DNA from: Streptomyces sp. NBC_01283
GTDB lineage: Bacteria > Actinomycetota > Actinomycetes > Streptomycetales > Streptomycetaceae
Assembly (NCBI RefSeq): GCF_041435335.1
Contig: NZ_CP108430.1
Span: forward strand, 3,268,501-3,332,500
Length of the DNA stretch: 64,000 nt
Reading direction: 5' to 3'
The translations under genes and the position numbers were made by a program. How positions within the stretch are numbered: the stretch's first letter is position 1; each line of letters opens with the position of its first letter. Of the stretch, positions 19,704 to 36,538 are shown piece after piece. The notes below the pieces were generated by a model. The model was not told the origin of the DNA, did no database searches, and worked only from the letters and a program-made list of their open reading frames with translations.

Positions 19704-19757
19704 TCAGCTGCCGGAGATGGAGGCCAGGTACGCGCCCGTCTTCTCCGGGTCAGAGAA
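19704..19757 (-). pseudogene. Left junction (attL): displaced native 3' end of the flavoprotein gene
   Basis: On the minus strand this segment encodes DPEKTGAYLASISGS and a TGA stop. The intact gene at 35303 ends DPEKTDAYLASLSGA and stop. Blocks of 15 (19720-19734) and 17 bases (19736-19752) are identical to 35319-35333 and 35335-35351, with a single mismatch between them. The rest of the native gene is at the other junction. I infer that the element inserted here and that this is the orphaned original end of the gene. Confidence 0.85.
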
Positions 19758-19819
19758 AACGGCCCCCAACCCGTCAGGCTCCCTACCAGCAGGTTTCCCC
19801 TAACTGGCAGGCCCATGAC

Positions 19820-19844
19820 GGGCCGTGGGCCGTCTGTGGGCCGT
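19820..19844. promoter_or_regulatory. Candidate integrase arm-type sites, left end
   Basis: GGGCCGT occurs at 19820, 19827 and 19838. An 18-base stretch, 19827-19844, is repeated exactly at 35219-35236 near the other junction. Repeats just inside both ends of an element are typical binding sites for the N-terminal domain of tyrosine integrases. The sites overlap the stop codon of int. Confidence 0.55.
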
Positions 19845-21088
19845 CAAAGCGATCGAGAGGCACTGTCGTAGACGGTCGCGATGGCCTTCCGAGTCCGCTC
19901 CCGGCTACTCGGCATGAGGTGGGCGTAGATCCTCAGCGTCAGGGCCGCGTTGCTGTGTCCAAGGTACTCACTGACGGCCTTGATGTTCTCCCCACCATCT
20001 AGGAGCGCCGAGGCGTAGAAGTGCCTCAGTGCGTGCATGCCGTGCTCGCGTGCCGCCGCGTAGTCGTCGCCCTTCGTCTCTGGCTCGGGAATGACTCCTG
20101 CCTTGACGAGAGCAGGCTTCCACGCGGTCTCGTTCAGGGTGGTGCGCCACACGTGGTTGCCGATGGGCGCCGTGAAGAGGATCTGACGGGTCGTCTTAGG
20201 CCCGTCAGACGTCTTCCAGGGCAGGGTGATTTCGACCGGCGGGAATTGCTTCATGTGGGCCCTGAGCGCGTCGGCCACGGGCCCTGGTAGGGGAACGTCC
20301 CGTGTCTTGCCGCCCTTGGGGAGAGCGAAGACAGGCTTACTTCCGCTGAGCTTGAGCTGTTGCACCACGTGCAGCGTGTCCGCTTCGAAGTCGATTGCGT
20401 CCACCGCGATGCCCAAGATCTCGCCCTGCCGCATCCCGCATCCCGCCCCCAGGTCGGCCATTGCCTGATAGCGATCCGGCAGCGCCTCCTGCACAGCGAA
20501 TACCCGCTCAACGGACCATGGCACGACGCGCTTGGCGTCAACGGCCGGCGGTTTCACGGAGCGAGCGGAGACGGGATTGCGGCTCAGATATCCGTCGTCG
20601 ACAGCCGCGCTCAGGGCGGAGCGAACGTTCGCGTAGATGATCCGGCCGTACGAGCCAGGCACGCTCGCTTCAAGTTCCGCCACCCACTCACGAATGTGCT
20701 CCGGCTTGAACGACCCGAGCGGGCGCGACCCGATGTACGGGAAGGCGTGCAGCCTGAGTTGGGAATTCATGGACTCGATGGTGTTCGGGTCCGCCCCAAG
20801 CGTGCTCAGCCACTTCTCCGTGTACTGCTGAAAGGTCTTCTTGGCCGCGCGCGGGTCGACGTACTGCCCGCTGCCCATGTCGGCCTCGGTGTTGCTCAGC
20901 CACTTCTCGGCGAGGCGCTTCTGACCGTCACGGAAGCTCTTGGACTTCTCGGTGCCGTCGGGGCCTACGTAGCGCGCCCGATAGCGCAGCCCCTTGCCGT
21001 GTCGGTCGGTCTTGACGCGGGTTGTCTTGCCGTCGGCGTCGGTCTCGTTCTCGGTCTTGAACCAGCGGTCTTGGATGTGGCCAGCCAC
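19844..21088 (-). CDS. int: Tyrosine site-specific recombinase (integrase)
   Basis: A 414-residue phage-type integrase. The catalytic set is complete: Arg220 (GCGMRQGE), a Lys in the beta-hairpin LPKGGKTRDVPL, His352-x-x-Arg355 (HALRHFYAS), His378 (LGHSN) and the nucleophile Tyr388 (RIYAHL). An N-terminal arm-binding domain (KGLRYRARYVGPDG) and a SAM-like core-binding domain (residues 82-165) precede it. Translation starts at GTG 21088. It should recombine attP with the 3' end of the flavoprotein gene. It lies beside the left junction, with xis directly upstream, as in pSAM2-type elements. Confidence 0.95.
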   Translation of the reverse strand: MAGHIQDRWFKTENETDADGKTTRVKTDRHGKGLRYRARYVGPDGTEKSKSFRDGQKRLAEKWLSNTEADMGSGQYVDPRAAKKTFQQYTEKWLSTLGADPNTIESMNSQLRLHAFPYIGSRPLGSFKPEHIREWVAELEASVPGSYGRIIYANVRSALSAAVDDGYLSRNPVSARSVKPPAVDAKRVVPWSVERVFAVQEALPDRYQAMADLGAGCGMRQGEILGIAVDAIDFEADTLHVVQQLKLSGSKPVFALPKGGKTRDVPLPGPVADALRAHMKQFPPVEITLPWKTSDGPKTTRQILFTAPIGNHVWRTTLNETAWKPALVKAGVIPEPETKGDDYAAAREHGMHALRHFYASALLDGGENIKAVSEYLGHSNAALTLRIYAHLMPSSRERTRKAIATVYDSASRSL

Positions 21089-21116
21089 GGGCGGGGTTCC
21101 CTTCTCAAAACGAGGA

Positions 21117-21143
21117 AGGGAGGGCCACGGTGTGGCCCTCCCT
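21117..21143 (-). terminator. Hairpin between xis and int
   Basis: AGGGAGGGCCAC at 21117-21128 pairs perfectly with 21132-21143, leaving a three-base loop. It sits in the 86-base gap between the xis stop and the int start. It could terminate or attenuate transcription and so lower integrase relative to excisionase. Confidence 0.6.
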
Positions 21144-21174
21144 GGGGTGTTGAGTCGCGCTCAGGAGTACGTAG

Positions 21175-21411
21175 TCAGGCGGCGTCCTCATCCGCCATGC
21201 GTTCCCTGGCCCAGTCGTGGACGGCGGCGGGGTCGTAGCGGATGTACTTGCCGACGCGGAAGCCGGGCGGGCCTGTGCGCTTCTTGCGCCACTGGTAGAC
21301 GGTCTCCTTGGGCACCTTGAATATCTCGGCGATGTCGTCGGGGGTGAGATAGCGGTCCGGGAGCCCGGCCCGGAGCGTCGCGCGGGGGTCGTTCGTCGTG
21401 GACGTGGCCAC
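21175..21411 (-). CDS. xis: Excisionase (MerR-like winged HTH, AlpA/Xis type)
   Basis: A protein of 78 residues if translation starts at GTG 21411, which has GAGGAGG five bases upstream. A longer frame from ATG 21468 has no site. The HTH is YLTPDDIAEIFKVPKETVYQ followed by the wing GFRVGKYIRYDPAAVHDW, the standard pattern of helix-turn-helix domain 17 excisionases. It bends attachment-site DNA and directs the integrase towards excision. It is encoded upstream of int on the same strand. Confidence 0.93.
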   Translation of the reverse strand: MATSTTNDPRATLRAGLPDRYLTPDDIAEIFKVPKETVYQWRKKRTGPPGFRVGKYIRYDPAAVHDWARERMADEDAA

Positions 21412-21449
21412 GGGTCCTCCTCGGCTAGCTACCGATTGCGGGGTGGTGA

Positions 21450-21740
21450 GCCGCCGCAGAAACCGCATAAACCCTGGCGGTCGTCCTGACCAGCGCGTTC
21501 ATGCTGCGTGTTTGTGCGGTGGGGGGTCCCGCAGAAACCCGCGAAATTCCGCAATATTCAGCGGCCCGCTCGGGTGGCCGGGTGAGGGCGCAGAAGGGCC
21601 GGGATTTTTGCGGAATTACCTGGGGTTTGTGCGGCGGGACCCCACCGGGCGTGGGCACAGAGAGTTGCCGCAGGTCAGCGGCGGGGCCCGGGTATTTCTG
21701 CGTTTCTGCGGTTTGTGCGGGCGGGGTCGGACACCTGCGG
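21450..21740. other. Candidate origin or control region: long imperfect inverted repeat with TTTGTGCGG repeats
   Basis: The 333 bases between the DUF3987 gene and xis hold no gene. Segments 21519-21553 and 21608-21644 form a long imperfect inverted repeat (arms contain GGGGTCCCGC and ATTCCGCAA) around a loop of about 54 bases. GTTTGTGCGG occurs three times (near 21510, 21625 and 21711), with related CCGCAGAAAC copies near 21455 and 21530. Iterated sequence plus dyad symmetry beside the replication genes suggests the replication origin. An operator for xis-int is the alternative. Confidence 0.5.
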
Positions 21741-21744
21741 GCGC

Positions 21745-23292
21745 TCACGCCTCGGTCTCCCGCAGGGCGGGGTGGAGGCGGTAGCGGGGTGCGGGTGGTC
21801 GCCCACGTGCCCCGGTGCGCTCGGGCTGGTAGCTGCGGAGATAGCCGTGCTCTTCGAGCAGCGCGGTCGCCGGTTCGAGATCGGCGACGTTGGGGAACTC
21901 GCTGCGGGACAGCTTGGTGAACAGATCCCGGCGGCTGACGTCCTCCCAGCCGCCCGCCCGCAGCGCTTCGAGTACGGCGCGGGCGCGGCCCACGGTGGGA
22001 TCGGCGCCCATGACGTCGAAGACAGCGAGCGCGTGAGCGGTGAAGTACTCCCCCAGCGTGATCGCGTTGCTCATGGTGGCCTCGGTGACCGGCGTGGTGT
22101 GGCCACGATCGAGGTGCTCTGCCAGGTGCAGGAGAGCGGCCATGCGGGCAACGGCTCCGGCGAGTTTGCCCGCCCAGTTGGAAATGTGCCCCAACGCACC
22201 GCCACGCGCCCTGAGTTGGGGCTCTACGCGCTTCTGGTAGCCGATGAGGGCTTGATCTGCCTCGGGGCTGAGCTGAATGACCGCCGGGTCGGTCCACTCC
22301 GCCAGAGACAGCGTGAGGGCGACGACGTTGCGCTCATAGGTCGCGCGGGTCTCCTCCGGGATCGGATCAGTGATGATCTCCCGCTCTCCCACCAGGGAGG
22401 TGGGCAGCGAGTACAGGAAGCGGGCCAGCAGCCCGCGTCCATCGAACCCCTTCACCTTGGCAATGTCGCGCAACACGTCGGGCTGCACGGCCAGGCCGAT
22501 GGTGAGCGCGGGGTGGTCGATGTACTCGCGGCGGGTCTGCCGGTTGACCCGCAGCCGGTCCCCGGCATGGCCTTTGAGGAAGACCTCCATGTTCGGGGCG
22601 CCGGAGTAGCGTCCGGCGATGATGTCGAAGATCCCGCCCTCGGCCGACATCACCGCGAGGCGACCACCCTGCTCGGCAATGAGCGAGGTGACCGTCTCAG
22701 AGGTGGAGTCGTCGGCCAGGAGCAGCGGTTCGACCGGAACGGCTACCGATTCGGCGGTCTGCGCGAGCCCGATGGCCTCGGCTACCAGCTCCTCGCGCTT
22801 GCCGCCCTCGGCATTCACGGCTTTGGCTGCGGCCTTGTCAGCTGCTTCCTTGGCCAGGCGGGCGGTCAGGGCCGCTTCGACGATGGCGGGCGCCATGGTC
22901 GCCTTGAGCTGCTTCTCGGCCTCGTACAGCGGGTCGGTGAGCAGGGCGAAGACGGCTGACTTGCGGTTGGCCGGGGGCAGTGCGCAGACCACGAACAGGT
23001 TCGTGGGCTCACGCCAGTTGCCCCGCACGTGAACGACCGCACGTCCGCCGGACGCAGTGGCCAGGGTGGACAGGGCCACGGAGCCCGCAAGGTCGATGGG
23101 CGTCTGGGTCTCCTCCGCGACGGCTGTCACGAACTCCCGCAGCCAGGCGGGGAAGACGTGCGCGGGGAAGACGGGAAGCTCACGTCGCCCGGTGAGCGGG
23201 ATGGGTTCTTCCCACGGGGTTTCGGTGGGCGCCGGTTCGTCAGTGAGGTCCTGTCCGGCCCACAGGTCGGTGTCCACAGGCTGTGCGCTCAT
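21745..23292 (-). CDS. DUF3987 domain protein (replication partner of Prim-Pol)
   Basis: A 515-residue protein. The N-terminal half has IDLAGSVALSTLATASGGRA and a P-loop-like ALPPANRKSAVFALL. The middle has MSAEGGIFDIIAGRYSG and YIDHPALTIGLAVQPDVLRD. These are DUF3987 signatures. Such proteins resemble helicase-like ATPases and commonly follow Prim-Pol proteins in plasmids, phages and AICEs. The likely role is loading or unwinding during element replication. The last 100 residues look like a winged-helix tail. Its start overlaps the preceding small gene by four bases (ATGA). Confidence 0.85.
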   Translation of the reverse strand: MSAQPVDTDLWAGQDLTDEPAPTETPWEEPIPLTGRRELPVFPAHVFPAWLREFVTAVAEETQTPIDLAGSVALSTLATASGGRAVVHVRGNWREPTNLFVVCALPPANRKSAVFALLTDPLYEAEKQLKATMAPAIVEAALTARLAKEAADKAAAKAVNAEGGKREELVAEAIGLAQTAESVAVPVEPLLLADDSTSETVTSLIAEQGGRLAVMSAEGGIFDIIAGRYSGAPNMEVFLKGHAGDRLRVNRQTRREYIDHPALTIGLAVQPDVLRDIAKVKGFDGRGLLARFLYSLPTSLVGEREIITDPIPEETRATYERNVVALTLSLAEWTDPAVIQLSPEADQALIGYQKRVEPQLRARGGALGHISNWAGKLAGAVARMAALLHLAEHLDRGHTTPVTEATMSNAITLGEYFTAHALAVFDVMGADPTVGRARAVLEALRAGGWEDVSRRDLFTKLSRSEFPNVADLEPATALLEEHGYLRSYQPERTGARGRPPAPRYRLHPALRETEA

Positions 23293-23462
23293 GAGGTCCT
23301 CCCCTCCTGCGGGTCAGAGCGAAGAGCTGAAAGGGCGCCCTTGCGGGCGGCGACCTTCGCCACGCCAGCGGCCGTCGGGGGAACGGCCGGTGGGGCGGCG
23401 CAGGGTGAACGGGTGGTGAGGGGAGGGCTTTTCAGGGGTTCGGGGGTGGGGGTGGTGCTCAT
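23289..23462 (-). CDS. Small Pro/Ala-rich protein, translationally coupled
   Basis: A 57-residue frame that starts inside the Prim-Pol stop codon (ATGA) and ends inside the DUF3987 start codon (ATGA), with GGAGG in front. The N-terminal half is Pro/Thr-rich (STTPTPEPLKSPPLTTR). The C-terminal half is basic (VAKVAARKGALSAL). The family is unknown. The perfect double overlap in a replication operon is the main reason to believe it is made. Confidence 0.55.
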   Translation of the reverse strand: MSTTPTPEPLKSPPLTTRSPCAAPPAVPPTAAGVAKVAARKGALSALRSDPQEGRTS

Positions 23463-24361
23463 GCCGTCCTCCGGGGCTGGCACGTGCGGATGGCCCAGTT
23501 CAGAGCGCTGCGCAGAGTGGCGCGGCACTGGGAGGCCGGGAGTCCGGTGGACTCGCCCGAGAGCTGAAAAGCCTGCTCCACCTCGTGGCGGGGGATGTCG
23601 CCCCAGGCCACGAAGCGGCCCATGGCGCGGGCGGCCTTGAACAGGGTCTCCTCGCGCTTGCCTTCCGGCGCGGCCTCGATGGCGGCGCGTTCGCGGTCCA
23701 AGGCGACCTGCGCACAGCGGGTTCCGTGCCGGGGCACGTTCAGCGGGAGGGGGCCTGCGGGCCGCTGGCGGGGCGTGAGAGCGTCCCGGAGCCAGCCTGG
23801 CAAGGCAAGTACCGGGGCGTCATCGAGGACCGTGTACGAGCCGTACGGCGTGGTGCTGCCGGGAGCGACCACGTACCCGCCCCACGCACGGGTGTCGACC
23901 TTGGGCGCCAAGGTCTCCTTCGTGTTGTGCAGGCGCACCCCGTCGGGGGCGGTGAAGTACAGGTGCTCCCCGCCGCTCGCGGTCCGCACCCGGTAGGTAG
24001 CAGGGACAGCCTGTCCGGAGCGCTCGCAGAGCGCCGCAAAGGTCGTCACGCCGCTAGGCGTGCCCTTCGGGTCCTTGGCCTTGGGCATGTCGAGATCGAC
24101 GACGACCAGACCGGAGGGGCCGGTGGCGATGCCGATGTTGAACGGGCGCGTGGCCCATGCGGTGTGGATGCGGGCGGGGTCGCGGGTGGCGCGCTGCTCG
24201 AACTTACGGTGCCCGTCGGCGCACTCGCCGGTACCGGGGCAACGGGTCTCGCCGTGCAGGGCGGGCGGCTTGTCGCCGACGCGCAGGGGGAAGACGTGCC
24301 AGCCGCGTGCTGCGGCATGGAGCGCTGCGGAGAGCAGCGCGGGAGGGCAGGCAGGTGTCAT
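23459..24361 (-). CDS. Bifunctional DNA primase/polymerase (Prim-Pol) replication protein, RepPP type
   Basis: A 300-residue protein from ATG 24361 with AGGAG upstream. The Prim-Pol core has GWHVFPLRVGDKPP near the N-terminus, GIATGPSGLVVVDLDMP with the metal-binding Asp-x-Asp, and TASGGEHLYFTAPDG with the conserved His. A glycine-rich GGYVVAPGS segment follows. Prim-Pol proteins make primers and extend them. In AICEs one class of replication initiator (RepPP) is of this kind. A C-terminal helical region (AAIEAAPEGKREETLFKAAR) resembles the PriCT-like part. It heads an operon with the 57-residue and DUF3987 genes. Confidence 0.9.
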   Translation of the reverse strand: MTPACPPALLSAALHAAARGWHVFPLRVGDKPPALHGETRCPGTGECADGHRKFEQRATRDPARIHTAWATRPFNIGIATGPSGLVVVDLDMPKAKDPKGTPSGVTTFAALCERSGQAVPATYRVRTASGGEHLYFTAPDGVRLHNTKETLAPKVDTRAWGGYVVAPGSTTPYGSYTVLDDAPVLALPGWLRDALTPRQRPAGPLPLNVPRHGTRCAQVALDRERAAIEAAPEGKREETLFKAARAMGRFVAWGDIPRHEVEQAFQLSGESTGLPASQCRATLRSALNWAIRTCQPRRTA

Positions 24362-24399
24362 GCTGGGGTTTCTCCTGTTTCTCTCGAAGGGACGGAGAG

Positions 24400-24441
24400 C
24401 CGAGGCGGTCGCGGTCTTTTGGTGAGAGGCGACCGCCTCGG
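24400..24441 (-). promoter_or_regulatory. Element hairpin, copy 1 (before the Prim-Pol gene)
   Basis: A 13-base-pair perfect stem (24400-24412 with 24429-24441) has a 16-base loop. On the transcribed strand the loop reads CTCTCACCAAAAGACC. It starts 7 bases after the lipoprotein stop and lies 39 bases before the Prim-Pol start. It shares its loop with copies at 30221 and 31568, and more distantly at 28185. Confidence 0.7.
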
Positions 24442-24447
24442 GCGTAG

Positions 24448-24708
24448 CTACTGGCCTTCGGTGCAGGCGGGGTAGGGATCGCCGACAGCGCACTTGTCGT
24501 AGTCGCTGATCAGGACCTGGAAGGGCTTGCGTTCGCCCTCGGCGGTTCGCACGGTCAGGAAGTAGGGGCGGCTCTTGGAAGCCGGGGGCGTCTTGTTGTC
24601 CTTGGCGACGACGACGCCGGGCGGCCCATCGGGCAGGGAGCATCCAGCGAGCGCAGTTACGGCGCTCACGGCCACGGCAACGGCGGCGATACGGGTTCGG
24701 CAGATCAT
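24448..24708 (-). CDS. Small lipoprotein of the element
   Basis: An 86-residue protein with a signal peptide and lipobox (AVTALAGCSLPDGPP, cysteine about residue 24). A mature part of about 60 residues has YFLTVRTAEGERKPFQVLIS and two more cysteines (KCAVGDPYPAC) that could form a disulphide. It should sit on the cell surface. A role in mating contact or exclusion is possible but unproven. The start overlaps the upstream stop codon (ATGA). A longer frame upstream is only an out-of-phase extension. Confidence 0.7.
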   Translation of the reverse strand: MICRTRIAAVAVAVSAVTALAGCSLPDGPPGVVVAKDNKTPPASKSRPYFLTVRTAEGERKPFQVLISDYDKCAVGDPYPACTEGQ

Positions 24709-25319
24709 GCGGCGTCCTCCTTGGTGATCTCGGCGGCGGGGAGTTCGGGCAGTCCCGCACGGCTGAGCGCGGCGGGGTCGTAGCCGGGCAGGGCGGCTCG
24801 GGTGAGCAGCGCGGTGGCGAGCTGCTCGGCATACGCCGCTCCGGCGCGGGCGGATTCGATCTGTGCTCCGGCCCGCAGCGCTTCGACGCGTTCCACGTGG
24901 GCGTGCTCCTCGCGGCGCCCGCTCGTGTGCCGCTCGTGCGCGAGGCGCTCGCGGCGGTCGGTGCGCCAGTAGCGGGCCGCGAGCCCGTAGGCGACGGCGG
25001 TGGCCAGCACCCACAGCAGGAGCGGCAGGGACAGACCGTCGGAGTACCCGGCGACCCCGGCGAAGGCCAGGGCGCCGGAGGTGGCGAACGCGGTCCCGGC
25101 GATGACGCGGTCACCGGCGAAGCCGACCGAAGCGAAAGTGCCGGCCGCTCCGGCGGCGAGGGCGAGAACGGTCATCAAGGCGGCGTTACCGATGCTGTGT
25201 TCGGCGCCGTCGGCGTTCCAGATGCGGGCCAGGATCAGCACGGTCGAGGTGGCCAGTGCGGGCGCGGCTTTGGGGGCGATGATGGCCAGCCAGTGCCGGG
25301 CGATGATCTGTTCGTTCAT
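24705..25319 (-). CDS. Multi-helix membrane protein of the element (Spd-like)
   Basis: A 204-residue protein from ATG 25319 with GGAGG upstream. It has about four membrane helices in residues 20-125 (for example AALMTVLALAAGAAGTFASV and LSLPLLLWVLATAVAYGLAA). A charged cytoplasmic helix (WRTDRRERLAHERH, HVERVEALRAGAQIE) and an Ala/Leu-rich tail follow. It resembles membrane proteins encoded around tra genes of Streptomyces plasmids, which help spread the element between hyphal compartments (pock formation). The assignment rests on topology and neighbours. Confidence 0.65.
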   Translation of the reverse strand: MNEQIIARHWLAIIAPKAAPALATSTVLILARIWNADGAEHSIGNAALMTVLALAAGAAGTFASVGFAGDRVIAGTAFATSGALAFAGVAGYSDGLSLPLLLWVLATAVAYGLAARYWRTDRRERLAHERHTSGRREEHAHVERVEALRAGAQIESARAGAAYAEQLATALLTRAALPGYDPAALSRAGLPELPAAEITKEDAA

Positions 25320-25960: not shown

Positions 25961-28153
25961 TCAGCCCGCGTCCCGCTTTCCGTCACGCTCCGCAATCGCG
26001 GTGGTGATGTGGGACCGGTCGACGCCCCGGCGGTTGACGACCTTGCCGTCCACCCGGCGGCCCACCTGGACGGTGGCGATGCCGTGCGGCTTGAGCGCCG
26101 CGTTCAGCGCTTCGGGGCCCCATCCCTCGTAGACCTCGGGCCGCAGTTCGGCGAGGCGGGTCACGATCGTCTCGGACCACAGCTTGGGTTCCTTGGCCGT
26201 GACCACGGCGAGGATGTCGGCGAGCAAGTCGTACGCGCTCGCGGTGACTTCCGGCTCCTCGCCCAGCGCGTGCCCGGAAAGCCTGCCCGCGTCTTCGCGG
26301 AGCTTGCGGGCCCGTGCGGCGATGCGGTCGGCTCCGGGGCCATCCACGTAGGCCGAGGAGACGATGCGGGCATCGGAGCCTTCGCCGACGAAGTAGTGGA
26401 TGCCCTTGTCACCCCAGGCGAACATGGTCGCCCGCACCCCGCGCTTGTAGGCGGAGGTGCCCAGGACCATGTCGTTTTCGAGCTGGCCCATGACTTTCAG
26501 GCACCAGCGGGCCGAGGCGTTCGCGGAGATCCCGGTGGGCAGCGCCTTCGCGTCGGGGCGCTGGGTGGCGAGCAGGAGCACGATGCCGGTGGCCGGACCG
26601 CGCTTGACCAGGTCGGTGGCGATCTCCTCGAACTCGTCCTTGTGCTTGGGGTGCTCGAACAGCACCTGGCACTCATCCACCCCGATCACGATGGGGTGCA
26701 GCCCAAGGGAGGGCTTGTCGGCGAGTTGGCTGGTCACCTTCGACTCCGGGCAGATGTCCCGCGGGAGCGAGCGGATCACCTTGGTCCGGCGCCGCAGCTC
26801 CTCGCGCAGCGCGCGGAAGTCGTTCAGCGCGTAGGTGATGGCCTCATCATCGTCCCCGGCGGCGTGCCGATGGGAGACCGCGTTGCCCACCGGATCGAGG
26901 TCGCCGGTGCCCTTCATGTCGTAGGTGTGCAGCTCAGCCCGCGAATCCAGCGCCGCAATCAGCAGCAGGAGACGCAGGAGGAAGGTCTTGCCCATGCGCG
27001 GGATGGCGCCGATGATCCCCGCGATGTACATGAGCGTGACTTCGACCCAGCGTCCTCGCTGGTCAGTGCCGTAGGCGACCGGCTTGAACAGGTTCACCGA
27101 ACCACTGGTGAGCAGAGGCCACTTGGGCTTCTTGGCGGTCGACATGTCCTGATCGCCGACCCACAGCACCAGGCGCCCGGTGTGCTCATCCGGCACGGCT
27201 TCGGGCCACACGCAGCCCAGCGGACGGCGCAGACCCGAAGCGAGCCGGTCACGGCGCTCGATCACGTCAGTGACCGTCACGCCGAAGGGCAAGTTGCCCT
27301 CCGCGCGCCATCCCGGACCATCCCGGGTGATCGGGGCAGTGAACTCGAACCCGTCCCGGCCCTTGCCCTGCGCCTGATTGATCGCCGGAATGCCCAGCGC
27401 CCCGAGTGCGCGCAGCACGATATCGCTGGTCAGCTTGGTTGCCTTGGGCAGTTCCACGGCCTTGTGGATGACCGGGTCATCCGCGCGGCGTCCGGCGAAG
27501 CCGAGCGCCATCGTGACCGCGCTGACCGAGATCGCCTGCAACCAAGTCGGGGCGAGCACGTAAATGGCGAGCGCTGCCCCCAGCCCGACGAACATCGACA
27601 GCACCGCGACCAGCGTGCGCAGCCGCACCCGGCCATCGCGCTGCCGCGAGAGCTTGAGGTACTCGGCCGCGTCCTCGCGACGCACGGCAGCCAGGCGCAC
27701 CGGCTCACCCTCGCGGTCGGCGACCCAACGCAGCGTCCCGCCCACGAACTTCGCCGCCCCGGCCGGTGCCTGGAGAGTGAGGCGGGCGGCGTAGATCGGG
27801 GAGCGCAGCGCGTGATAGCCGGTGGCGTGCGCATAGTGGCTGGCCACCCACGCGGTGGCCGTCTTCAGCTCCGCCATCGACCGCAGCCACTCCGGGACGA
27901 CCGCGCGACGGCGGGCACCCCGCAGTCGACCCAGGTAGCCCGGACCAGCAGCCTTCGCGGTCGGCTGGTCAACCATGACCGGACGCTCCGGACTGCCCGA
28001 CTCAACGCCCGGACCATCCGGAACGGGGTCGGGGGTGGCCGATTCGGCACGGGCGGTGCGGGCTGCGTCGAGGTCGACCACGTCGCCGCCAGCCTCGGTG
28101 GCCATCTCGGCTTCGAGCCGGTTGAACAGGTTGTTTTCGTCGTCGTGATTCAC
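25961..28153 (-). CDS. traB: FtsK/SpoIIIE-type conjugative DNA translocase TraB (TraSA-like)
   Basis: A 730-residue protein. It has an acidic N-terminus, membrane helices around residues 178-220, and an ATPase core with Walker A GAIPRMGKT (382-390) and Walker B IVIGVDECQ (Asp493). A C-terminal winged-helix-like region (about 660-725) follows, where FtsK family members read DNA repeats. In Streptomyces a single TraB hexamer moves double-stranded DNA into the recipient, without relaxase or type IV secretion. The gene is flanked by a conserved-loop hairpin upstream and the CGCTAGCG cluster downstream. Confidence 0.93.
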   Translation of the reverse strand: MNHDDENNLFNRLEAEMATEAGGDVVDLDAARTARAESATPDPVPDGPGVESGSPERPVMVDQPTAKAAGPGYLGRLRGARRRAVVPEWLRSMAELKTATAWVASHYAHATGYHALRSPIYAARLTLQAPAGAAKFVGGTLRWVADREGEPVRLAAVRREDAAEYLKLSRQRDGRVRLRTLVAVLSMFVGLGAALAIYVLAPTWLQAISVSAVTMALGFAGRRADDPVIHKAVELPKATKLTSDIVLRALGALGIPAINQAQGKGRDGFEFTAPITRDGPGWRAEGNLPFGVTVTDVIERRDRLASGLRRPLGCVWPEAVPDEHTGRLVLWVGDQDMSTAKKPKWPLLTSGSVNLFKPVAYGTDQRGRWVEVTLMYIAGIIGAIPRMGKTFLLRLLLLIAALDSRAELHTYDMKGTGDLDPVGNAVSHRHAAGDDDEAITYALNDFRALREELRRRTKVIRSLPRDICPESKVTSQLADKPSLGLHPIVIGVDECQVLFEHPKHKDEFEEIATDLVKRGPATGIVLLLATQRPDAKALPTGISANASARWCLKVMGQLENDMVLGTSAYKRGVRATMFAWGDKGIHYFVGEGSDARIVSSAYVDGPGADRIAARARKLREDAGRLSGHALGEEPEVTASAYDLLADILAVVTAKEPKLWSETIVTRLAELRPEVYEGWGPEALNAALKPHGIATVQVGRRVDGKVVNRRGVDRSHITTAIAERDGKRDAG

Positions 28154-28247: not shown

Positions 28248-28634
28248 TCAGGCGGTGCACTGTTCTTCGGGGTAGGCGCAGGGCACGCACATGCCGAGCG
28301 AGGCCGGGATGCAGTACCCGGCGTCCAGGTGGCAGACCGGGCAGGTGCGGCGGGCGAGCATCGCCAGCGCGAGCGCGCCCCACTTGCGCGAGGTCATCGG
28401 CCGCACTGGAAGCGCCTTGTCGAGGCGGTAGAGGTAGGCGACCTTCGCGCCGGACTTCCGGCCGCGCTGGCGGATCATCACCTGAGCCGCTATCGGCTGA
28501 CCGCCCGGACGCAGCCCCTTCGCACGGAGCTGCCTGCGGGTGGCCAGGCCGTCCGGGGCGAGGCGCCAGGGGAACGTGGGCACGCCGTAGCGGGCGCCGC
28601 TGGGGTCGTAGCACTTGGCGTATGCGGTGCCCAT
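28248..28634 (-). CDS. RRQRL-motif zinc-binding protein
   Basis: A protein of 128 residues from ATG 28634, whose start shares a base with the preceding stop (TGATG). It has RRQLRAKGLRPGGQPIAAQV near the middle and a C-terminal four-cysteine cluster (TCPVCHLDAGYC, GMCVPCAYP). This matches a family of small zinc-binding proteins named for an RRQRL motif and common in Streptomyces mobile elements. No molecular function is known. It is coupled to the DUF2637 gene and lies upstream of traB. Confidence 0.75.
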   Translation of the reverse strand: MGTAYAKCYDPSGARYGVPTFPWRLAPDGLATRRQLRAKGLRPGGQPIAAQVMIRQRGRKSGAKVAYLYRLDKALPVRPMTSRKWGALALAMLARRTCPVCHLDAGYCIPASLGMCVPCAYPEEQCTA

Positions 28635-29641
28635 CACGCGGCCACTTGGTCGTCGCGGAGGTCCTGCACGCGGGCGTTGACCCAGCCGACCGACCAGCCC
28701 GTGCGATCGGCGATGGTGCGCACGGAGTCGCCCGCGGCATGCCCGGCACGGACGGCGGCGAGGGCGTCGGTCTCGTTCATCTTCGTGACCGACGCGGTGT
28801 TCACCGCTCGCGTCTGCGGGGTTGTCTTGGGCCGCGCGGCGCGTTCACGAGCGGCAGCCTCGGCCCGTTCACGGCTCTCGCGTTCGCGCTGTTCACGGGC
28901 GGCCCGCTCTTGCTGTTCACGCCGCTCGCGTTCGGCCCGCTCGCGGTCCTCGCGCTCCTGCTCGTACTGCCGCTGCTCGCGCCGGGCCCGTTCCTGCCGC
29001 TCGGCTTCCTCGCGACGGAGGCGTTCCTCATGTTCGCGCTGTTCACGGCGTTCTACGGCTTCCCGTTCGGCCCGCTGTGCTTCGAGCCGCTCAGCGTGTT
29101 CGCGAGCCTCGCGCTCCCGGCGTTCACGCATCTCGCGTTCGCGTTCACGCTCCTCGCGGGCGGCCCGTTCACGGGCCTGCCGTTCGCAGCGTTCACGCTC
29201 GGACTGCTCGGACTGTTCACGGGCGAGTTCATCCAGGCGCCGGGAGATCGCGCGACGGTAAGCGAGTCCGGCCTCTCCGGTCGCAATCAGCAGGGCGGGG
29301 GCAACGAGGTGAACACCCACGCCGACGAGATCACCCTTGAGCGCCGATTCGCCGATGTTGAGCGCGACCGTCATCAATCCGGTGAGCCAACGCAGGATGC
29401 CCGGCCACGTACCGGCCTCGCCCCCCAGACGGGCCACCGTGGAATCCAGGCGGATCACGATGACGACCGCGGAGTCGACCACGAGCGGCAGGATCGGTGC
29501 CGTCCAGTCCCACTCGGCAGCCGTGGTGCGCTGCACGAGCGGGGTAACCGTCAGGACGCTGAAGAGGATCGCGCCGAACGTGATCGTCCAGGTGCCTACG
29601 CTCAAGGTCCGTTCCGCGCCCGCGAGTTGCTTGGGCGTCAT
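28634..29641 (-). CDS. DUF2637 membrane protein with long charged coiled coil and C-terminal HTH (SpdB-like)
   Basis: About 335 residues from ATG 29641 (GAGGA upstream); ATG 29656, which overlaps the previous stop, is an alternative. The first 130 residues form the DUF2637 unit with four helices (for example WTITFGAILFSVLTV and HLVAPALLIATGEAGLAYRR). Residues 140-285 are an almost uninterrupted Arg/Glu heptad-like coiled coil (RERAEREREQ-like). The C-terminus has an HTH-like segment (VRTIADRTGWSVGWVNARVQ). DUF2637 proteins are regularly linked to Streptomyces transfer and spread genes. A membrane anchor joined to a DNA-binding end suggests tethering of element DNA. Confidence 0.8.
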   Translation of the reverse strand: MTPKQLAGAERTLSVGTWTITFGAILFSVLTVTPLVQRTTAAEWDWTAPILPLVVDSAVVIVIRLDSTVARLGGEAGTWPGILRWLTGLMTVALNIGESALKGDLVGVGVHLVAPALLIATGEAGLAYRRAISRRLDELAREQSEQSERERCERQARERAAREEREREREMRERREREAREHAERLEAQRAEREAVERREQREHEERLRREEAERQERARREQRQYEQEREDRERAERERREQQERAAREQRERESRERAEAAARERAARPKTTPQTRAVNTASVTKMNETDALAAVRAGHAAGDSVRTIADRTGWSVGWVNARVQDLRDDQVAA

Positions 29642-29652
29642 GGCGGCGGTCC

Positions 29653-29859
29653 TCATGCCGCACCGCCGATCCGCCGCAGCCGACGCCCGTGCAGGAGCCA
29701 CCCGGCGAATTGCACCAGGCCCCCGCCCGCAACGCCGAACCGCCAGGCGGGCTCATGCAGCACGAGCAGGCAGACGGTCGCGGCCACCATGGTCAGCGCG
29801 CCCACCACGATCAGGGCCAGCGCCCCGCCGCTGGGGGAAGGCTTCGTGTTCTCGCTCAT
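29653..29859 (-). CDS. Small membrane protein
   Basis: A 68-residue protein with two hydrophobic helices (GGALALIVVGALTMVAATVC and FGVAGGGLVQFAGWLL) and a basic end (HGRRLRRIGG). Start and stop are both ATGA-coupled to neighbours. The family is unknown and the role is probably with the spread proteins. Confidence 0.6.
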   Translation of the reverse strand: MSENTKPSPSGGALALIVVGALTMVAATVCLLVLHEPAWRFGVAGGGLVQFAGWLLHGRRLRRIGGAA

Positions 29860-31536: not shown

Positions 31537-31567
31537 GGCGGATCTCCTGTTTCGCGGGAAGGGGCGA

Positions 31568-31743: not shown

Positions 31744-31911
31744 TCAGAACCAGCGGGATTTCTTCTTCGGCGTGATGTTGGGGCAGCCGTTGACCATGTG
31801 GTTCACGCACTGCGGGCAGTCCTCGCGAGGACCAAGGGCGCGGTGTATCCGCTTGTTGTGGGCGTGCTCCCAGCACTGCGGGCACTCGCCCGGAGGCGTC
31901 TGCGTCGCCAT
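31744..31911 (-). CDS. Small four-cysteine zinc-binding protein
   Basis: A 55-residue protein with two CPQC pairs (GECPQCWEHAH and EDCPQCVNHMV) and several His, ending KKKSRWF. It has an excellent AAAGGAG site seven bases before ATG 31911. It is likely to be a mini zinc ribbon. It is the first gene read leftward from the central control region opposite the GntR repressor. Confidence 0.7.
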   Translation of the reverse strand: MATQTPPGECPQCWEHAHNKRIHRALGPREDCPQCVNHMVNGCPNITPKKKSRWF

Positions 31912-32301: not shown

Positions 32302-32404
32302 CAAGTGGTTTCCCCTTGGATCGGGGCGACCACTTGCTAACTAGCTTGCACTAGTCTGCTGTGGTCCACAACCCTCGCGAGGTGATGCGCGCTAGTTCGC
32401 TGTG
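32302..32404. promoter_or_regulatory. Operator region of the GntR (KorSA-like) repressor
   Basis: Between the leftward genes and gntR there are: CAAGTGGT (32302) and its exact complement ACCACTTG (32329), 19 bases apart; the inverted repeat ACTAG-N6-CTAGT (32340-32355); and two direct CTAGTNNGCTGTGG copies (near 32351 and 32390). Clustered CTAGT half-sites fit autoregulation by the short GntR protein and control of the divergent transfer genes. Confidence 0.6.
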
Positions 32405-32421
32405 GTGGGTACCCTCAAGGA

Positions 32422-32757
32422 ATGACTGTCACAGGAGGGCCAAAGCCAAAGGCGGTGCAGGTCGCGGACGCACTCCGCGACGACATCAAGAAGATGAAGC
32501 CGGGGGAGAAACTCGCGTCTCAGCGAGAGCTGATGGACCGCTTCGGGTACGCAAGCCAGACCATCCAGAACGGGCTAGCCGCGCTCCGAGCCGAGGGACT
32601 GGTCGTGTCGGCGGGGAACTTGGGCAACTTCGTCAGCGACGGGTCTGCCCCAAGTGGCGACGTACGTGATGACATCAAGGAAATCCGCTCCCAACTCCAG
32701 GCGTTGACTGCACGGCTCGAAGCACTGGAAAACCGCTCCGCACCAGGTGGCGCTTGA
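32422..32757 (+). CDS. Short GntR-family repressor (KorSA-like)
   Basis: A 111-residue protein with a GntR winged HTH (QVADALRDDIKKMKPGEKLA, then QRELMDRFGYASQTIQNGLA) and a C-terminal coiled coil (IKEIRSQLQALTARLEALEN) in place of a large effector domain. Short GntR proteins such as KorSA of pSAM2 repress transfer and replication genes of Streptomyces elements and are themselves autoregulated. It is transcribed rightward, away from the tra genes. Operators lie directly upstream. Confidence 0.88.
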   Translation: MTVTGGPKPKAVQVADALRDDIKKMKPGEKLASQRELMDRFGYASQTIQNGLAALRAEGLVVSAGNLGNFVSDGSAPSGDVRDDIKEIRSQLQALTARLEALENRSAPGGA

Positions 32758-32805
32758 TCTGCAATCAGCATGGGAGTAACGGAGCGTGTGGGGTAAGTGA
32801 CAGCC

Positions 32806-32870
32806 CTGGGGACGATGGGAGGAGCTGGGGACATGTCCAGTGACACCCCCCTGTCCCCTTCCCTGTCCCC
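32806..32870. promoter_or_regulatory. Repeated GGGGAC/GTCCCC sites upstream of the XRE regulator
   Basis: CTGGGGAC occurs at 32806 and 32825. GTCCCC occurs in opposite orientation at 32853 and 32865. The second direct copy is part of CTGGGGACATGTCCAG. These four half-sites upstream of the start at 32916 are probably autoregulatory sites. Confidence 0.45.
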
Positions 32871-32915
32871 CCGGCTCGGGCGCGAGACTCGGAGTAGGCA
32901 TTCGGAGGAGGGCGC

Positions 32916-34163
32916 ATGACTGACGACAGGCCCGCATGGGCACGACGCATCGCCGCCGAACGGCAGGCGCGCGACTGGTCACAGCGGGACGCGGTCAGGG
33001 CCCTGCGCTCGCACGCCCCCACGGAGCTACCGGCGGAGGACAGCATGATTCGCCAGTGGAAGCGCTGGGAGTCCGGCCAGGCACCGAACGACTTCTATCA
33101 ACCGATCATCGCCGCCGTGTTCGGCACGGTGACGCGCGCGCTCTTCCCCGCTCCGTCGCGACGGGACGGAGACAGGGAAATCTTGGCAGTGAGCGGTATG
33201 GAGACTCTGGAGATCGTGAGTCGTCTGAACCGGTCCGACGTCAGCAGCGGGACGCTCGATGCTCTTCGGATCACCACGGACCGCCTCTGCTCTGAGTACC
33301 CCTTCATGCCGAGTGCCCAGCTCCTCATCGAGGGGCGGCAGTGGCTGCGCCGAGTCGTTGAGCTGCACACCAAGAGCCTCACGCTTGCCCAGCATCGCGA
33401 AGTGCTCGCGCTGTCGGGTTGGCTCGCCTTGCTGGTCGGCTGCGTCGAGTACGACACGGGAGATCGCCACGCAGCCGAGTCAACGCGTCGCGCCGCTCTG
33501 TCGCTGGCCACTGAGGCAGACCACCCCGAGGTAGCGGGGTGGGCACACGAGATGCGGGCATGGTTCGCCCTCACGACCGGCGACTATCGCGGGGTCATCG
33601 CCGCAGCGCAGGCTGGAGCAGAGACCGCACCGCAGCACGGCGTCGCCGTGCAGCTCGCCGGTCAGGAGGCCAAGGCGTGGGCGCGGCTCGGGGACCGTCG
33701 GCAGGTTGAGGTGGCTCTCGACAAGGGGCGCCGCCTGCTGGAGGGGATGCCGTACCCCGAGAACCTGGACAACCACTTTGTCGTCGACCCCGCCAAGTTC
33801 GACTTCTACGCGATGGATTGCTACCGACTGGTCGGGGAAGACCGACTCGCTCGGACACTCGCGGACGAGGTCCTGCGCGCCGGAACCGACTTCGACGGCA
33901 CGGAGCGGTCACCCATGCGGAACTCCGAAGCGCGGGTAACCCTGGGGGTCGCCGCAGCGCGGGAGGGCAACCTCGATGAGGCGCTTATTCATGGTGAGCG
34001 GGCCCTACAGGGCGAGCGGCAGTCCGTTCCCTCTCTCATCATGACCAGTCGAGAACTCGCGGCGGTAATGAGGCAGCGCTATGGCACCGAACCCGCAGCT
34101 CAGGACTACCTATCCCACCTGCAAGAATTGGGCAAGGAGAAGCCGGGGTTCCTCCCCTCCTGA
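32916..34163 (+). CDS. XRE-family regulator with TPR-like C-terminus
   Basis: A 415-residue protein with an N-terminal XRE-type HTH (RRIAAERQARDWSQRDAVRA, then WKRWESGQAPNDFYQPIIAA). A long helical region of TPR-like repeats follows (for example LALSGWLALLVGCVEYDTGD, AQAGAETAPQHGVAVQLAGQ, TLGVAAAREGNLDEALIHGE). This type is abundant in Streptomyces and may sense a peptide or other ligand. On the element it could control the switch between integrated and transferring states. It ends 3 bases before a perfect 23-base-pair hairpin. Confidence 0.83.
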   Translation: MTDDRPAWARRIAAERQARDWSQRDAVRALRSHAPTELPAEDSMIRQWKRWESGQAPNDFYQPIIAAVFGTVTRALFPAPSRRDGDREILAVSGMETLEIVSRLNRSDVSSGTLDALRITTDRLCSEYPFMPSAQLLIEGRQWLRRVVELHTKSLTLAQHREVLALSGWLALLVGCVEYDTGDRHAAESTRRAALSLATEADHPEVAGWAHEMRAWFALTTGDYRGVIAAAQAGAETAPQHGVAVQLAGQEAKAWARLGDRRQVEVALDKGRRLLEGMPYPENLDNHFVVDPAKFDFYAMDCYRLVGEDRLARTLADEVLRAGTDFDGTERSPMRNSEARVTLGVAAAREGNLDEALIHGERALQGERQSVPSLIMTSRELAAVMRQRYGTEPAAQDYLSHLQELGKEKPGFLPS

Positions 34164-34166
34164 CAG

Positions 34167-34222
34167 ATGGCATACGTGTGGCCCACCTCCTATAAGGATG
34201 AGGTGGGCCACACGTATGCCAT
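34167..34222. terminator. Perfect 23-base-pair hairpin after the XRE gene
   Basis: Positions 34167-34189 and 34200-34222 are exact complements, with a 10-base loop (CTATAAGGAT). It begins three bases after the XRE stop codon, so it is most simply a terminator. No T tract follows. The length and perfection of the arms are unusual. Confidence 0.7.
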
Positions 34223-34361
34223 TTGCCCCTTGACCTGCGTCAGTTTCCGTCTCATTCAGCCCCGTACGCCGACGTTCCTGACCGTACGCACTGCGATTTC
34301 AGGGGTTCGCCCGGACGGGGCCGAGAGGGCGAATTTCGGACAACCTCCGAATACTCTCTTG

Positions 34362-34404
34362 GTCGCTTCCCGTCACTTCCCGTCGCTTCCCGTCGCTTCC
34401 CGTC
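34362..34404. repeat. Tandem 10-base repeat
   Basis: The unit CGTCRCTTCC is repeated about four times (one partial, three full, then CGTC). It lies in the roughly 600-base non-coding stretch 34223-34821, in which I otherwise see only hairpins and short repeats. Confidence 0.6.
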
Positions 34405-34591
34405 AATCAACCTTGATTCCCTGGATTCCCTTTGGCGGCGGCTTGGATGGCGTCCGCAATCAAGAGTGCGTGGCCAAGACAGTTCGCACGCCCACTGCAT
34501 CACCGCGCCTTGGCCCTAGAGTCGAAATCAGCGTCACGCGGGCTACCACCTAAGAGTGTGAGGCATCCCATATGACCGCTTTCTGGGGCGG

Positions 34592-34778
34592 CCCTAGTTA
34601 CCCCGCAGTTACACCCTAGTTAGACAATGGCCCGTCACTGAACCAAGTAGATGTGATCAAATACCCCGTCCAGAAACGGGGTTCGTCGACAGCTGCCCTA
34701 GAATCAGGTCAGGTCTACCAACGCAAAAGGAGCCCGCGATCCGACATCGGTTCCTAGGCCACTAGTCGGGGGCTCCTT
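34592..34778 (+). promoter_or_regulatory. Direct repeats and hairpins upstream of a small gene
   Basis: CCCTAGTTA occurs at 34592 and 34614, 22 bases apart (two helical turns); it resembles the CTAGT half-sites near the GntR gene. A 7-base-pair hairpin (ACCCCGT/ACGGGGT, 34663-34682) is followed by a TAGAAT sequence (about 34700) that could be a -10 box. A larger hairpin then follows (34727-34739 with 34766-34778, 12 of 13 pairs). Confidence 0.4.
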
Positions 34779-34821
34779 ATGCGGCATTCCAGTCCACCAC
34801 TCACGGGAAGAAAGGAAGCGT

Positions 34822-34998
34822 ATGGACGATGGTAAGCCCCGCACCAATGGGGCGCCTACGCGACTGCAAAAATTGGCACGCAGGATCAGGCTGCTCGGCC
34901 ACCGAGACCTGATGGGGGAGGCGCTTCGGGGCGCCGCATACAAAGCAGGCAGCAGCGCAGTGACGGTCCTGATCCTCTGGATCCAGAGTCGACGCTGA
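34822..34998 (+). CDS. Small basic protein near the right end of the element
   Basis: A 58-residue frame with ATG five bases after AGGA. It is rich in Arg/Lys in the first half (RLQKLARRIRLLGHRDLMGE) and has a hydrophobic segment (AVTVLILWIQ) near the end. It is followed 9 bases later by a 20-base perfect palindrome that would act as a terminator. The family is unknown. The ribosome binding site, the terminator and the repeats upstream support a real gene. Confidence 0.5.
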   Translation: MDDGKPRTNGAPTRLQKLARRIRLLGHRDLMGEALRGAAYKAGSSAVTVLILWIQSRR

Positions 34999-35007
34999 CG
35001 ACGCACA

Positions 35008-35027
35008 GCCCCTCCCTAGGGAGGGGC
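35008..35027. terminator. Perfect 20-base palindrome (terminator)
   Basis: GCCCCTCCCTAGGGAGGGGC lies directly after the small gene's stop codon. It is also next to the stop codon of the degenerate HNH frame on the other strand, so it may act in both directions. Confidence 0.55.
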
Positions 35028-35200
35028 CTAGCCCGACCCCGAGCAGTTGAGCCGCAACCACATCTTGAGGCGCGGCATGGTTCGGCGAATCATGCGGTGA
35101 CAGTTCGAGCAGATCAGCGAGAGGTCGGCCAGCTTCGTGGTGCCCTATCCGGCTACGCGGAGCGATACCACGTGGTGAAGCTCGGGGAGCAGGAGCGCAG
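35028..35200 (-). pseudogene. Degenerate HNH endonuclease gene fragment
   Basis: The minus strand encodes ELHHVVSLRVAG, an in-frame TAG, then GTTKLADLSLICSNCHRMIR and TMPRLKMWLRLNCSG before a stop. This is the HNH signature (HH...G.T.L.DL.L.CSNCHRM) interrupted by a stop codon. Another stop lies shortly upstream, so only a remnant remains. HNH genes often sit at element or phage ends. This one appears dead. Confidence 0.6.
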
Positions 35201-35218
35201 CTCAGCCGAGGGAGAGCC

Positions 35219-35236
35219 GGGCCGTCTGTGGGCCGT
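35219..35236. promoter_or_regulatory. Candidate integrase arm-type site, right end
   Basis: An 18-base sequence identical to 19827-19844 contains two GGGCCGT units. It is 67 bases from the right junction repeat. The partner copies are just inside the left junction. Confidence 0.55.
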
Positions 35237-35302
35237 GAAAGGGCGGCCCACAACGGCCAACGACAACCAATGACGACGGCTACTCTGCAGGTCGGACGCC
35301 CT

Positions 35303-35351
35303 TCAGGCGCCGGAGAGCGAGGCCAGGTACGCGTCCGTCTTCTCCGGGTCA
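35303..35351 (-). repeat. Right junction (attR), inside the 3' end of the flavoprotein gene
   Basis: This is the direct-repeat partner of 19704-19752. The identical blocks are 35319-35333 and 35335-35351. Similarity continues towards the stop codon but fades on the gene-body side, as expected if the element supplies the end of the gene and crossover took place in the 17-base block. Confidence 0.8.
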
Positions 35352-36538
35352 TAGAAGAAGTTCTCGAAGTCCGAGGGGTCGTTGAAGCCGTTGGCGAAGC
35401 GGTTGGCCGCCGGCTGGAGCTGGCCTGCCGCGCCGATCAGGTTCAGGACGTGCTCCGGCGGCGGCGACAGCATGGCGTTCGTCCACTTGGTGACGTGCTG
35501 AGCCGTCTCCCAGTACCGGTCGAACGTGGCCTGCATCCACTCCTCGTCGAACGGCTTGTCGCCGTGCGCGACGATCGAGGAGAGGTACGCCGCGGCGCAC
35601 TTCGACGCCGAGTTGGAGCCCTGCCCCGTGATCGGGTCGTTGGCCACGACCACGTCGGCGACGCCCAGGACGAGTCCGCCGCCCGGCAGCCGGCCCACGG
35701 GCTTGCGCACGGTCGGGGCGTACCGCCCGGACAGTGTGCCGCCCGCGTCCGTCAGTTCGACCTTGGTCGCCCGCGCGTACTCCCACGGCGTGAACTTCTC
35801 CAGGAGTTCGAGCGTCAGCGCCAGGTGCTCCGAGGGGTCCTTGACGCCCTGGAAGACGTCCAGCGGGCCGCCCGGTACGCCCTCCCAGAAGAGGATGTCC
35901 GCACGCCCGGACGTCGTCAGCGTCGGCATGACGAAGAGCTCGCCCACACCCGGCACGAGATTGCACCGCACCGCGTCGAACTCGGGGTGCTCGGGCCGCG
36001 GCCCCATCCCGTGGACGTACGCGACGGCCAGCGCGCGCTGCGGGGTGTCGTACGGGGAGCGCGAGGCGTCGCGCTCGAACATCGAGACCAGCTCGCCCTT
36101 GCCCGCGGCGACGAGCACGAGGTCGTACGTACGGGAGAAGTAGTCGAGGTCGGAGACCGCCGCGCCGTGGATGACCAGCTGGCCGCCCCGCTGCGCGAAC
36201 GTCTCCATCCAGCCCGCCATCTTCACGCGCTGGTCAACGGACTGGGCGAAGCCGTCCAGCTTGCCGACCCAGTCGATGACGCGGGAGGAGTCGGGCCCGG
36301 CGACCGAGACGCCGAGGCCCTCGATCTTCGGGGCCTGGGACTCCCAGAAGTTCAGCTGCAACTCACGCTCGTGCTCCAGCGCCGTGTCGAACATGCACTG
36401 CGTGGACATCACACGGCCGGACCGGACCTCGTCCGCCGTGCGGTTGGACATCAGGGTGACCTCGTACCCCTGTGACTGGAGTCCGAGAGCGATCTGGAGC
36501 CCGGCCTGACCGGCTCCGACGACGAGTATCTTCCGCAT
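35303..36538 (-). CDS. Styrene/indole monooxygenase-like flavoprotein, C-terminus supplied by the element
   Basis: A 411-residue FAD-dependent protein. It starts with the dinucleotide-binding motif ILVVGAGQAGLQIALGL and contains the StyA-type substrate domain and GLVLGVADVVVANDPITGQG, the usual second FAD motif. StyA-type enzymes are group E monooxygenases that need a separate flavin reductase. None is encoded nearby and the substrate is unknown. It follows cvnD by 40 bases on the same strand, so it may belong to the conservon operon. The last ten or so codons derive from the integrated element, with DAYLASLSGA replacing the native GAYLASISGS. Confidence 0.88.
   Translation of the reverse strand: MRKILVVGAGQAGLQIALGLQSQGYEVTLMSNRTADEVRSGRVMSTQCMFDTALEHERELQLNFWESQAPKIEGLGVSVAGPDSSRVIDWVGKLDGFAQSVDQRVKMAGWMETFAQRGGQLVIHGAAVSDLDYFSRTYDLVLVAAGKGELVSMFERDASRSPYDTPQRALAVAYVHGMGPRPEHPEFDAVRCNLVPGVGELFVMPTLTTSGRADILFWEGVPGGPLDVFQGVKDPSEHLALTLELLEKFTPWEYARATKVELTDAGGTLSGRYAPTVRKPVGRLPGGGLVLGVADVVVANDPITGQGSNSASKCAAAYLSSIVAHGDKPFDEEWMQATFDRYWETAQHVTKWTNAMLSPPPEHVLNLIGAAGQLQPAANRFANGFNDPSDFENFFYDPEKTDAYLASLSGA

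Follow-up and report, generated by a model that had tools for sequence, protein, structure and literature searches.

Gene restoration by a mobile element in a flavoprotein gene

The question raised by a 64,000-nucleotide stretch of Streptomyces sp. NBC_01283 (NZ_CP108430.1, positions 3,268,501 to 3,332,500; hereafter the window, in whose own numbering positions are given unless another genome is named) is how a mobile element can occupy the end of a protein-coding gene and leave that gene whole. Two direct repeats of 57 bp and 88% identity (19701-19757 and 35300-35356, 15,599 bp from start to start) bound a 15.6-kb element that resembles an actinomycete integrative and conjugative element (AICE) and lies in the last codons of a gene for a StyA-like flavoprotein. 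The initial annotation had placed these repeats in the 3' end of a styrene-monooxygenase-like gene, and the observation is real: when the DNA at 19000-19800 was searched against the whole 9.6-Mb genome, the second copy was recovered at E = 1.2e-12. From sequence comparison, we hold it very probable that the element was integrated into the 3' end of the gene by a tyrosine integrase and that it replaces the last 13 codons and the stop with a substitute of its own.

The gene (35303-36538, minus strand), apparently rebuilt with the element tail EKTDAYLASLSGA and its stop, encodes a flavoprotein monooxygenase of 411 amino acids and ends DPEKTDAYLASLSGA. It matches PF17885 (E = 2.8e-44) and scores 238.6 bits against the NCBIfam StyA model, under the equivalog cut-off of 550. 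Homologues at E ≤ 1e-40 are found in 279 of 295 genomes of the genus, that of the window included. Because the alignment to the closest solved structures, chains named 'putative dehydrogenase/oxygenase subunit (flavoprotein)', runs up to residue 408 of 411, the exchanged tail is the very C-terminal end of the protein. The far copy of the repeat translates to DPEKTGAYLASISGS, with its stop at 19704-19706; the displaced gene end EKTGAYLASISGS plus stop (19704-19745, minus strand), which other elements lead us to take as the host's native tail, differs from the tail on the gene at three residues (D/G, L/I, and A/S).

Within the repeats, the attachment site cores attR (TTCTA-TGACCCG-GAGAA, 35340-35356) and attL (TTCTC-TGACCCG-GAGAA, 19741-19757), both on the minus strand, contain the putative 7-bp overlap TGACCCG (35345-35351 and 19746-19752). 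A search of the window found the core GACCCGGAGAAGAC free of mismatches at the two repeat positions only; the other three of the five matches listed have two mismatches, and about four matches this loose are expected by chance. The attL core lies ∼85 bp beyond the integrase stop. A putative arm-type integrase site, ACGGCCCACAGACGGCCC, is matched exactly near either end (right arm, 35219-35236; left arm, 19827-19844; minus strand); these are its only matches in the window at up to three mismatches, and it also occurs near both ends of related elements. A tRNA target was considered and rejected: no attachment site falls in a tRNA gene, and the sole tRNA gene found in the window, at 58032-58136, is not near the element.

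Taken together, these features suggest a mechanism in which strand exchange would occur in or beside the 7 bp YGASCCS (TGACCCG here), between the inverted half-sites TTCTC and GAGAA and over the codons D-P. The attP site would consist of the core, a substitute for the last 13 codons of the gene with a stop, and then the right arm, running from the integrase side via TGACCCGGAGAAGACGGACGCG to the right arm. Integration would join the substitute tail (35303-35344, minus strand) to the host gene at 35303-36538 and leave the host's own tail next to the integrase gene at the opposite end of the element (19704-19745), and excision should give back the native tail. We infer the precise bounds of the 7-bp overlap and that the window copy is active, and, by analogy with other elements, that EKTGAYLASISGS stems from this host; the gene-restoring attP is seen in Streptomyces pseudovenezuelae and would extend to the window by analogy with other elements.

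Evidence that the element carries the gene end

What we regard as the cleanest proof that the flavoprotein tail belongs to the element comes from S. pseudovenezuelae (genome G011, locus L142), in which a close relative of the element lies inside a carotenoid-oxygenase gene (G011:C13:90096-105664). The two halves of this gene (C13:105020-105664, profile positions 1-216, and 90096-90821, profile positions 214-468) meet the element at junctions where TTCTCTGAGCCG is followed by AAGAAGACGGCG and GGGCGTGACG by GAGAAGACAGGCGCC, and they rejoin in frame. The attR site reads GAGAAGAC...EKTGAYLASVTGA and a stop, with the arm site 108 bp further on; given the junctions and the in-frame rejoining, attR from GAGAA onward is thus element DNA. 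The flavoprotein gene of the same genome is uninterrupted, ends TGAYLASVTGAA, and lacks the arm, and the DNA on its 3' side resembles, by eye, the end of an NlpC/P60 gene. As a separate observation, this insertion is off-target, and the carotenoid-oxygenase gene is broken in mid-frame.

The same anatomy recurs in all seven two-ended elements at the flavoprotein site (the window, G023, G268, and those of Streptomyces prunicolor, Streptomyces filipinensis, Streptomyces atroolivaceus, and Streptomyces diastatochromogenes; 6.8-15.6 kb between cores): at attR the gene is complete and a conserved element arm comes after it, with a second tail beyond the integrase gene. Two more relatives (L074 and L075) are interrupted by contig ends. 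In five of the seven, the two tails differ, by up to several residues and in length, as in S. filipinensis (SAYLASLG displaced versus QAYLASVAGA on the gene) and S. atroolivaceus (NAYLAEISGAQG displaced versus NAYLGSLTGA on the gene). The target frame is kept at full length throughout: the 411-residue frame of the window runs without a stop, and all 15 other parsed element or remnant genes are in frame, as is that of L076. This shared anatomy, together with the presence of the tail in another gene in S. pseudovenezuelae, bears out the earlier proposal that the element carries a copy of the gene end and rebuilds the gene with it.

The contigs of Streptomyces sp. SID12501 are also of note. The element contig (L075, 9303 bp) has an identical 24-bp core at its start and end; its first 127 bases recur as the end of the flavoprotein contig, and its last 127 as the beginning of the NlpC/P60 contig. 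The element contig starts at the first base past the divergence of host (TTCTA) and element (TTCTC) and stops at the point where the tails of host (C) and element (T) diverge. If reads join the element end to its start, an assembly graph with k = 127, the value suggested by the overlaps, should branch there. Contig breaks exactly at both cores would imply an attP junction, from a circle or a tandem copy alike, in an assembly whose contig titles give a coverage of 118.2 for the element contig and 59.6 for one other contig; the material here is assembled contigs, not reads.

Host neighbors and empty sites

In relatives, the host neighbor of the flavoprotein gene is an NlpC/P60 gene, which in the window lies at 17810-19099 (plus strand; PF00877). 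Its protein was matched within ∼1.5 kb downstream in 25 of 29 relatives' loci, three of which are element-remnant sites, and was unmatched within this span in L021, L022, L023, and L026. At the empty site of G123, where the flavoprotein is 94% identical, NlpC/P60 homology starts 85 bp beyond the stop with 84% DNA identity. Beyond the displaced tail, four other two-ended elements (G023 and those of S. prunicolor, S. filipinensis, and S. atroolivaceus) show an NlpC/P60 match, and in the window this gene is reached after ∼600 private bases. These hold an open reading frame of 185 amino acids (19096-19653, minus strand; no Pfam or NCBIfam match), which the initial annotation had expected to follow the intact gene directly. 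This expectation was not borne out, as the frame has distant matches (30-38% identity) in only six other genomes of the 295 and at one further place in its own genome, and relatives have NlpC/P60 instead. Among 100 relatives, the DNA at 18900-19760 is present only in the genome of the window. Upstream of the flavoprotein gene, a gene matches PF03029 (ATP_bind_1), presumably as in conservon operons.

Tails that outlast the element

At E ≤ 1e-40, the right arm beyond the stop matches 13 of the 295 genomes: that of the window, two (G143 and G119) in which the match ends near the stop, and 10 others. With these 10 and G023 and G041, which fall below this threshold, we surveyed 12 sites for decay. 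The integrase gene is whole in G268 and G023, fragmentary in G216, G101, and G095, and unmatched at the sites of G240, G282, G172, G255, G179, and G041; the G237 site is interrupted by a contig end. At the nine sites with the integrase gene fragmentary or unmatched, NlpC/P60 lies ∼0.9 to 3.4 kb from the stop. Genes at the surveyed sites end in frame with tails of element length, a result subject to selection bias because the query contains the window tail. The survey supports the view that element tails can persist after decay, with arm and tail kept and the integrase gene absent or fragmentary.

Tail length was compared as well. A tail of 15 residues is found in 16 of 17 element or remnant genes as scored (L076, counted as a miss, actually reads 15 residues) and in 12 of 26 empty genes, these being 25 of the 29 relatives, with L020, L023, L025, and L028 set aside as occupied, plus G011. 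We give the resulting Fisher p of 0.0012 no weight, because the genomes are related and 15 is also the commonest native length; moreover, ten occupied sites came from a DNA query containing the window's tail, which favors tails of such length. The six sites found via the integrase, and so free of this bias (G268, G023, L072, L073, L076, and L077), all have 15 residues. Because tails outlast the element, part of the C-terminal variation between orthologues may consist of scars left by mobile elements. To the broader idea that such elements act as vectors of protein C-termini, with a tail that outlasts the element and an effect of occupancy, open to selection, on the enzyme or the expression of its operon, we attach little credence.

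Gene content of the element

The accessible text of PMC3218068 defines an AICE by three modules: Int, Rep (RepSA, RepAM, or Prim-Pol), and an FtsK/SpoIIIE-type Tra. The Int module is present in the window as an integrase gene that adjoins one attachment site (19844-21088; 414 amino acids; PF00589, E = 1.6e-16). Next to it lie genes for a helix-turn-helix protein of 97 amino acids, Xis-like by its position (21175-21468; PF12728, E = 6.3e-12), a DUF3987 protein that may act in replication (21745-23292; PF13148, E = 2.5e-104), and a Prim-Pol (bifunctional primase/polymerase) protein (23459-25114; PF09250, E = 9.9e-44), which represents the Rep module. The candidate for Tra is a putative FtsK/TraB-like translocase of 730 amino acids (25961-28153), in which the ATPase motifs GAIPRMGKT and IVIGVDE were read by eye; its NCBIfam matches to EccCa (1.9e-6) and TraB (2.1e-5) are weak and below cut-off, and it has no Pfam match, PF01580 included, and no PDB match at E ≤ 0.01. 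These genes are on the minus strand, as is that for a DUF2637-like protein (28634-29701; PF10935, 24.1 bits, cut-off 22.8), inside which repeats with a 24-nucleotide period (28837-29221) perhaps encode a coiled-coil region. An NsdA-family regulator (32916-34163, plus strand; NF053720, 106.3 bits, cut-off 75) is shared with the elements of G268 and S. diastatochromogenes at the flavoprotein site (89% and 85% identity).

Alternative readings of the locus

Several observations weigh against the proposed exchange of tails. An element-free strain of the same species was not found in searches of the 295 genomes with the private reading frame and of the 100 relatives with the DNA at 18900-19760; the collections hold one genome per species and so say little on other strains of the same species. 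The sister tails NAYLTGLAG (G123) and GAYLASLAGE (G280) match neither window tail, the two tails of S. prunicolor and of S. diastatochromogenes encode identical residues (two of the seven pairs, uninformative on a swap), and NlpC/P60 was unmatched beyond the displaced tail in G268 and S. diastatochromogenes. Rather than the host's native tail, the far repeat might have been left by an earlier element that used this site, with 19100-19704 as the remnant beside which the present element inserted. These 600 bp were not found in the relatives searched, accretion is known for AICEs in the accessible text of PMC9513070, and decayed elements are common at the flavoprotein site. However, the DNA beyond the 19704 stop scored no better against the right arms of 16 sites (mean 9.69) than its shuffles (10.08; reached by 127 of 200), whereas the window's own right arm, as control, scored 34.47 (reached by none of 200), and a third arm site was not found in the window. 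As neither search supported accretion as the source of the 19.7-kb tail, we did not retain it and consider it improbable.

The position of the crossover can likewise be read differently. The 15-bp block GCGTACCTGGCCTC is also identical in the two window repeats, and a crossover further on in this block would exchange only the last four to six codons and leave the D/G difference to another cause. This is very improbable, as the shortest block common to both ends, that of S. filipinensis, stops at CGACCCCGAGAAGAC, short of GCGTACCTGGCCTC, and host and element diverge at the GAGAA half-site in S. pseudovenezuelae; a 7-bp overlap YGASCCS between TTCTC and GAGAA appears to fit the cases. Finally, the window copy may be fixed in place, either as a defective element or as a relative of AICEs that does not conjugate. 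The lack of a Pfam match and the weak NCBIfam matches of the Tra candidate point this way, as do the many decayed elements at the site. However, the integrase, Xis-like, DUF3987, Prim-Pol, and 730-residue ATPase reading frames are uninterrupted, and each end retains its core and arm. We judge a fixed copy unlikely, if less so than the two preceding alternatives. Replacement of the gene end by an AICE-like element remains our preferred reading.

Targets of the integrase subfamily

Homologues of the integrase at E ≤ 1e-90 occur in 137 of the 295 genomes; the genome of the window holds two further members of the subfamily (G000:C1:4483347-4484576 and 6504201-6505424; 65% and 62% identity). For a midpoint-rooted tree, 109 integrases were labeled by target (94 different, some genomes having been reached twice): 81 gpmA, 9 flavoprotein, 5 glnA, 2 miaA, 2 cdsA, 1 icd, 1 nusG, 2 carotenoid oxygenase (the same element both times), and 6 without an assigned target. 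The gpmA label denotes a gpmA 3' end downstream of the integrase gene inside the fetched locus, ∼80 bp to ∼1.4 kb off. Target names were taken from NCBIfam for one example per gene, with cdsA and the carotenoid oxygenase under their equivalog cut-offs and the latter above the Pfam RPE65 cut-off. The 3' end of a protein-coding gene adjoins 101 of the 109 integrases, gpmA above all, so the flavoprotein target is ordinary for this subfamily. Of the two related claims in the initial annotation, the one that AICEs typically use tRNA genes agrees with the 36 tRNA sites of one Streptomyces population in the accessible text of PMC9513070, whereas the one that the present target is unusual does not hold.

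The nine flavoprotein and two carotenoid-oxygenase rows form one clade (support 100/96), nested with gpmA rows (98/85 and 96/86), and the labels change 10 times on the tree, compared with a mean of 27.5 in shuffles, none of 200 of which was as low. Target genes such as gpmA and glnA, and likewise the remaining named ones, point toward the integrase gene; at the flavoprotein site, the whole gene lies at the end away from the integrase gene, and the displaced tail has the same orientation as the integrase gene. We infer one change of target from gpmA to the flavoprotein gene with reversed gene orientation, the direction being suggested by the nesting of the clade in the midpoint-rooted tree. In a scan of named genomes, limited to the best 79 integrase loci, repeats at both ends were detected among 76 testable loci for 11 gpmA-type sites, 5 flavoprotein cores, and 1 glnA site; no integrase end was found in the other three, and because the loci extend no more than 10 kb upstream, the repeats of larger elements would be missed.

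Like the present element, gpmA-targeting relatives such as L121, L127, and L128 have the same integrase subfamily and a short repeat at the gene 3' end, and L121 shows the same arm motif at both ends; unlike it, in gpmA-targeting relatives the gene runs toward the integrase gene and the repeat is TACTTCTTCTTGCCCTGG, of 18-23 bp. In L144, a glutamine synthetase gene-end repeat of 88 bp and 97% identity lies at 3142-3229 and ∼11345-11432, the latter just past the integrase gene and ∼8 kb from the former; it is probably a gene-restoring tail of similar type but greater length. In several gpmA-site loci (L043, L044, L045, and L051), inspection by eye showed tandem repeats, each tens of bases long, between the integrase gene and gpmA.

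Comparison with known systems

In the literature searched, supplements and subscription papers lying outside the search, no report of flavoprotein or phosphoglyceromutase attachment sites was found. The accessible texts already describe AICEs at protein-gene targets as well as attP sites that restore a gene; what appears new is the flavoprotein attB, its repeated use, the probable switch from gpmA to the flavoprotein gene, and the persistence of element tails after the elements themselves have decayed. The analysis maps an attB/attP pair in a gene found in 279 of 295 sampled genomes of the genus, together with an integrase that might serve as a chromosomal integration tool, and the subfamily is now documented with repeated use of protein-gene 3' ends, one probable change of target, and one gene-breaking off-target insertion.

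According to the accessible text of PMC3218068, AICEs that use tyrosine recombinases lie overwhelmingly in tRNA genes, the pSLS subfamily excepted. In one Streptomyces population (PMC9513070, accessible text), 36 insertion sites were in tRNA genes, 14 in protein-coding genes, and 1 between genes, and integrase exchange changes the AICE target. As here, some of these AICEs occupy single-copy protein-coding genes (rlmN, a glycosyltransferase gene) and are flanked by short direct repeats; their target genes are others, and tail replacement is not described in the text compared. The attP site usually carries a replacement sequence for the tRNA or protein target gene (PMC10111431 and PMC12884075, accessible parts). 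The icd-type genomic islands (PMC10111431, in part) resemble the present element in an attP substitute for the displaced gene end and in off-target insertions but are enterobacterial prophages and satellites with other integrases and genes. PAISt of Streptomyces turgidiscabies (PMC4057263, in part) is likewise an integrative element at a protein-gene (bacA) 3' end but differs in its target, the 8-bp palindrome TTCATGAA, and in being a large pathogenicity island.

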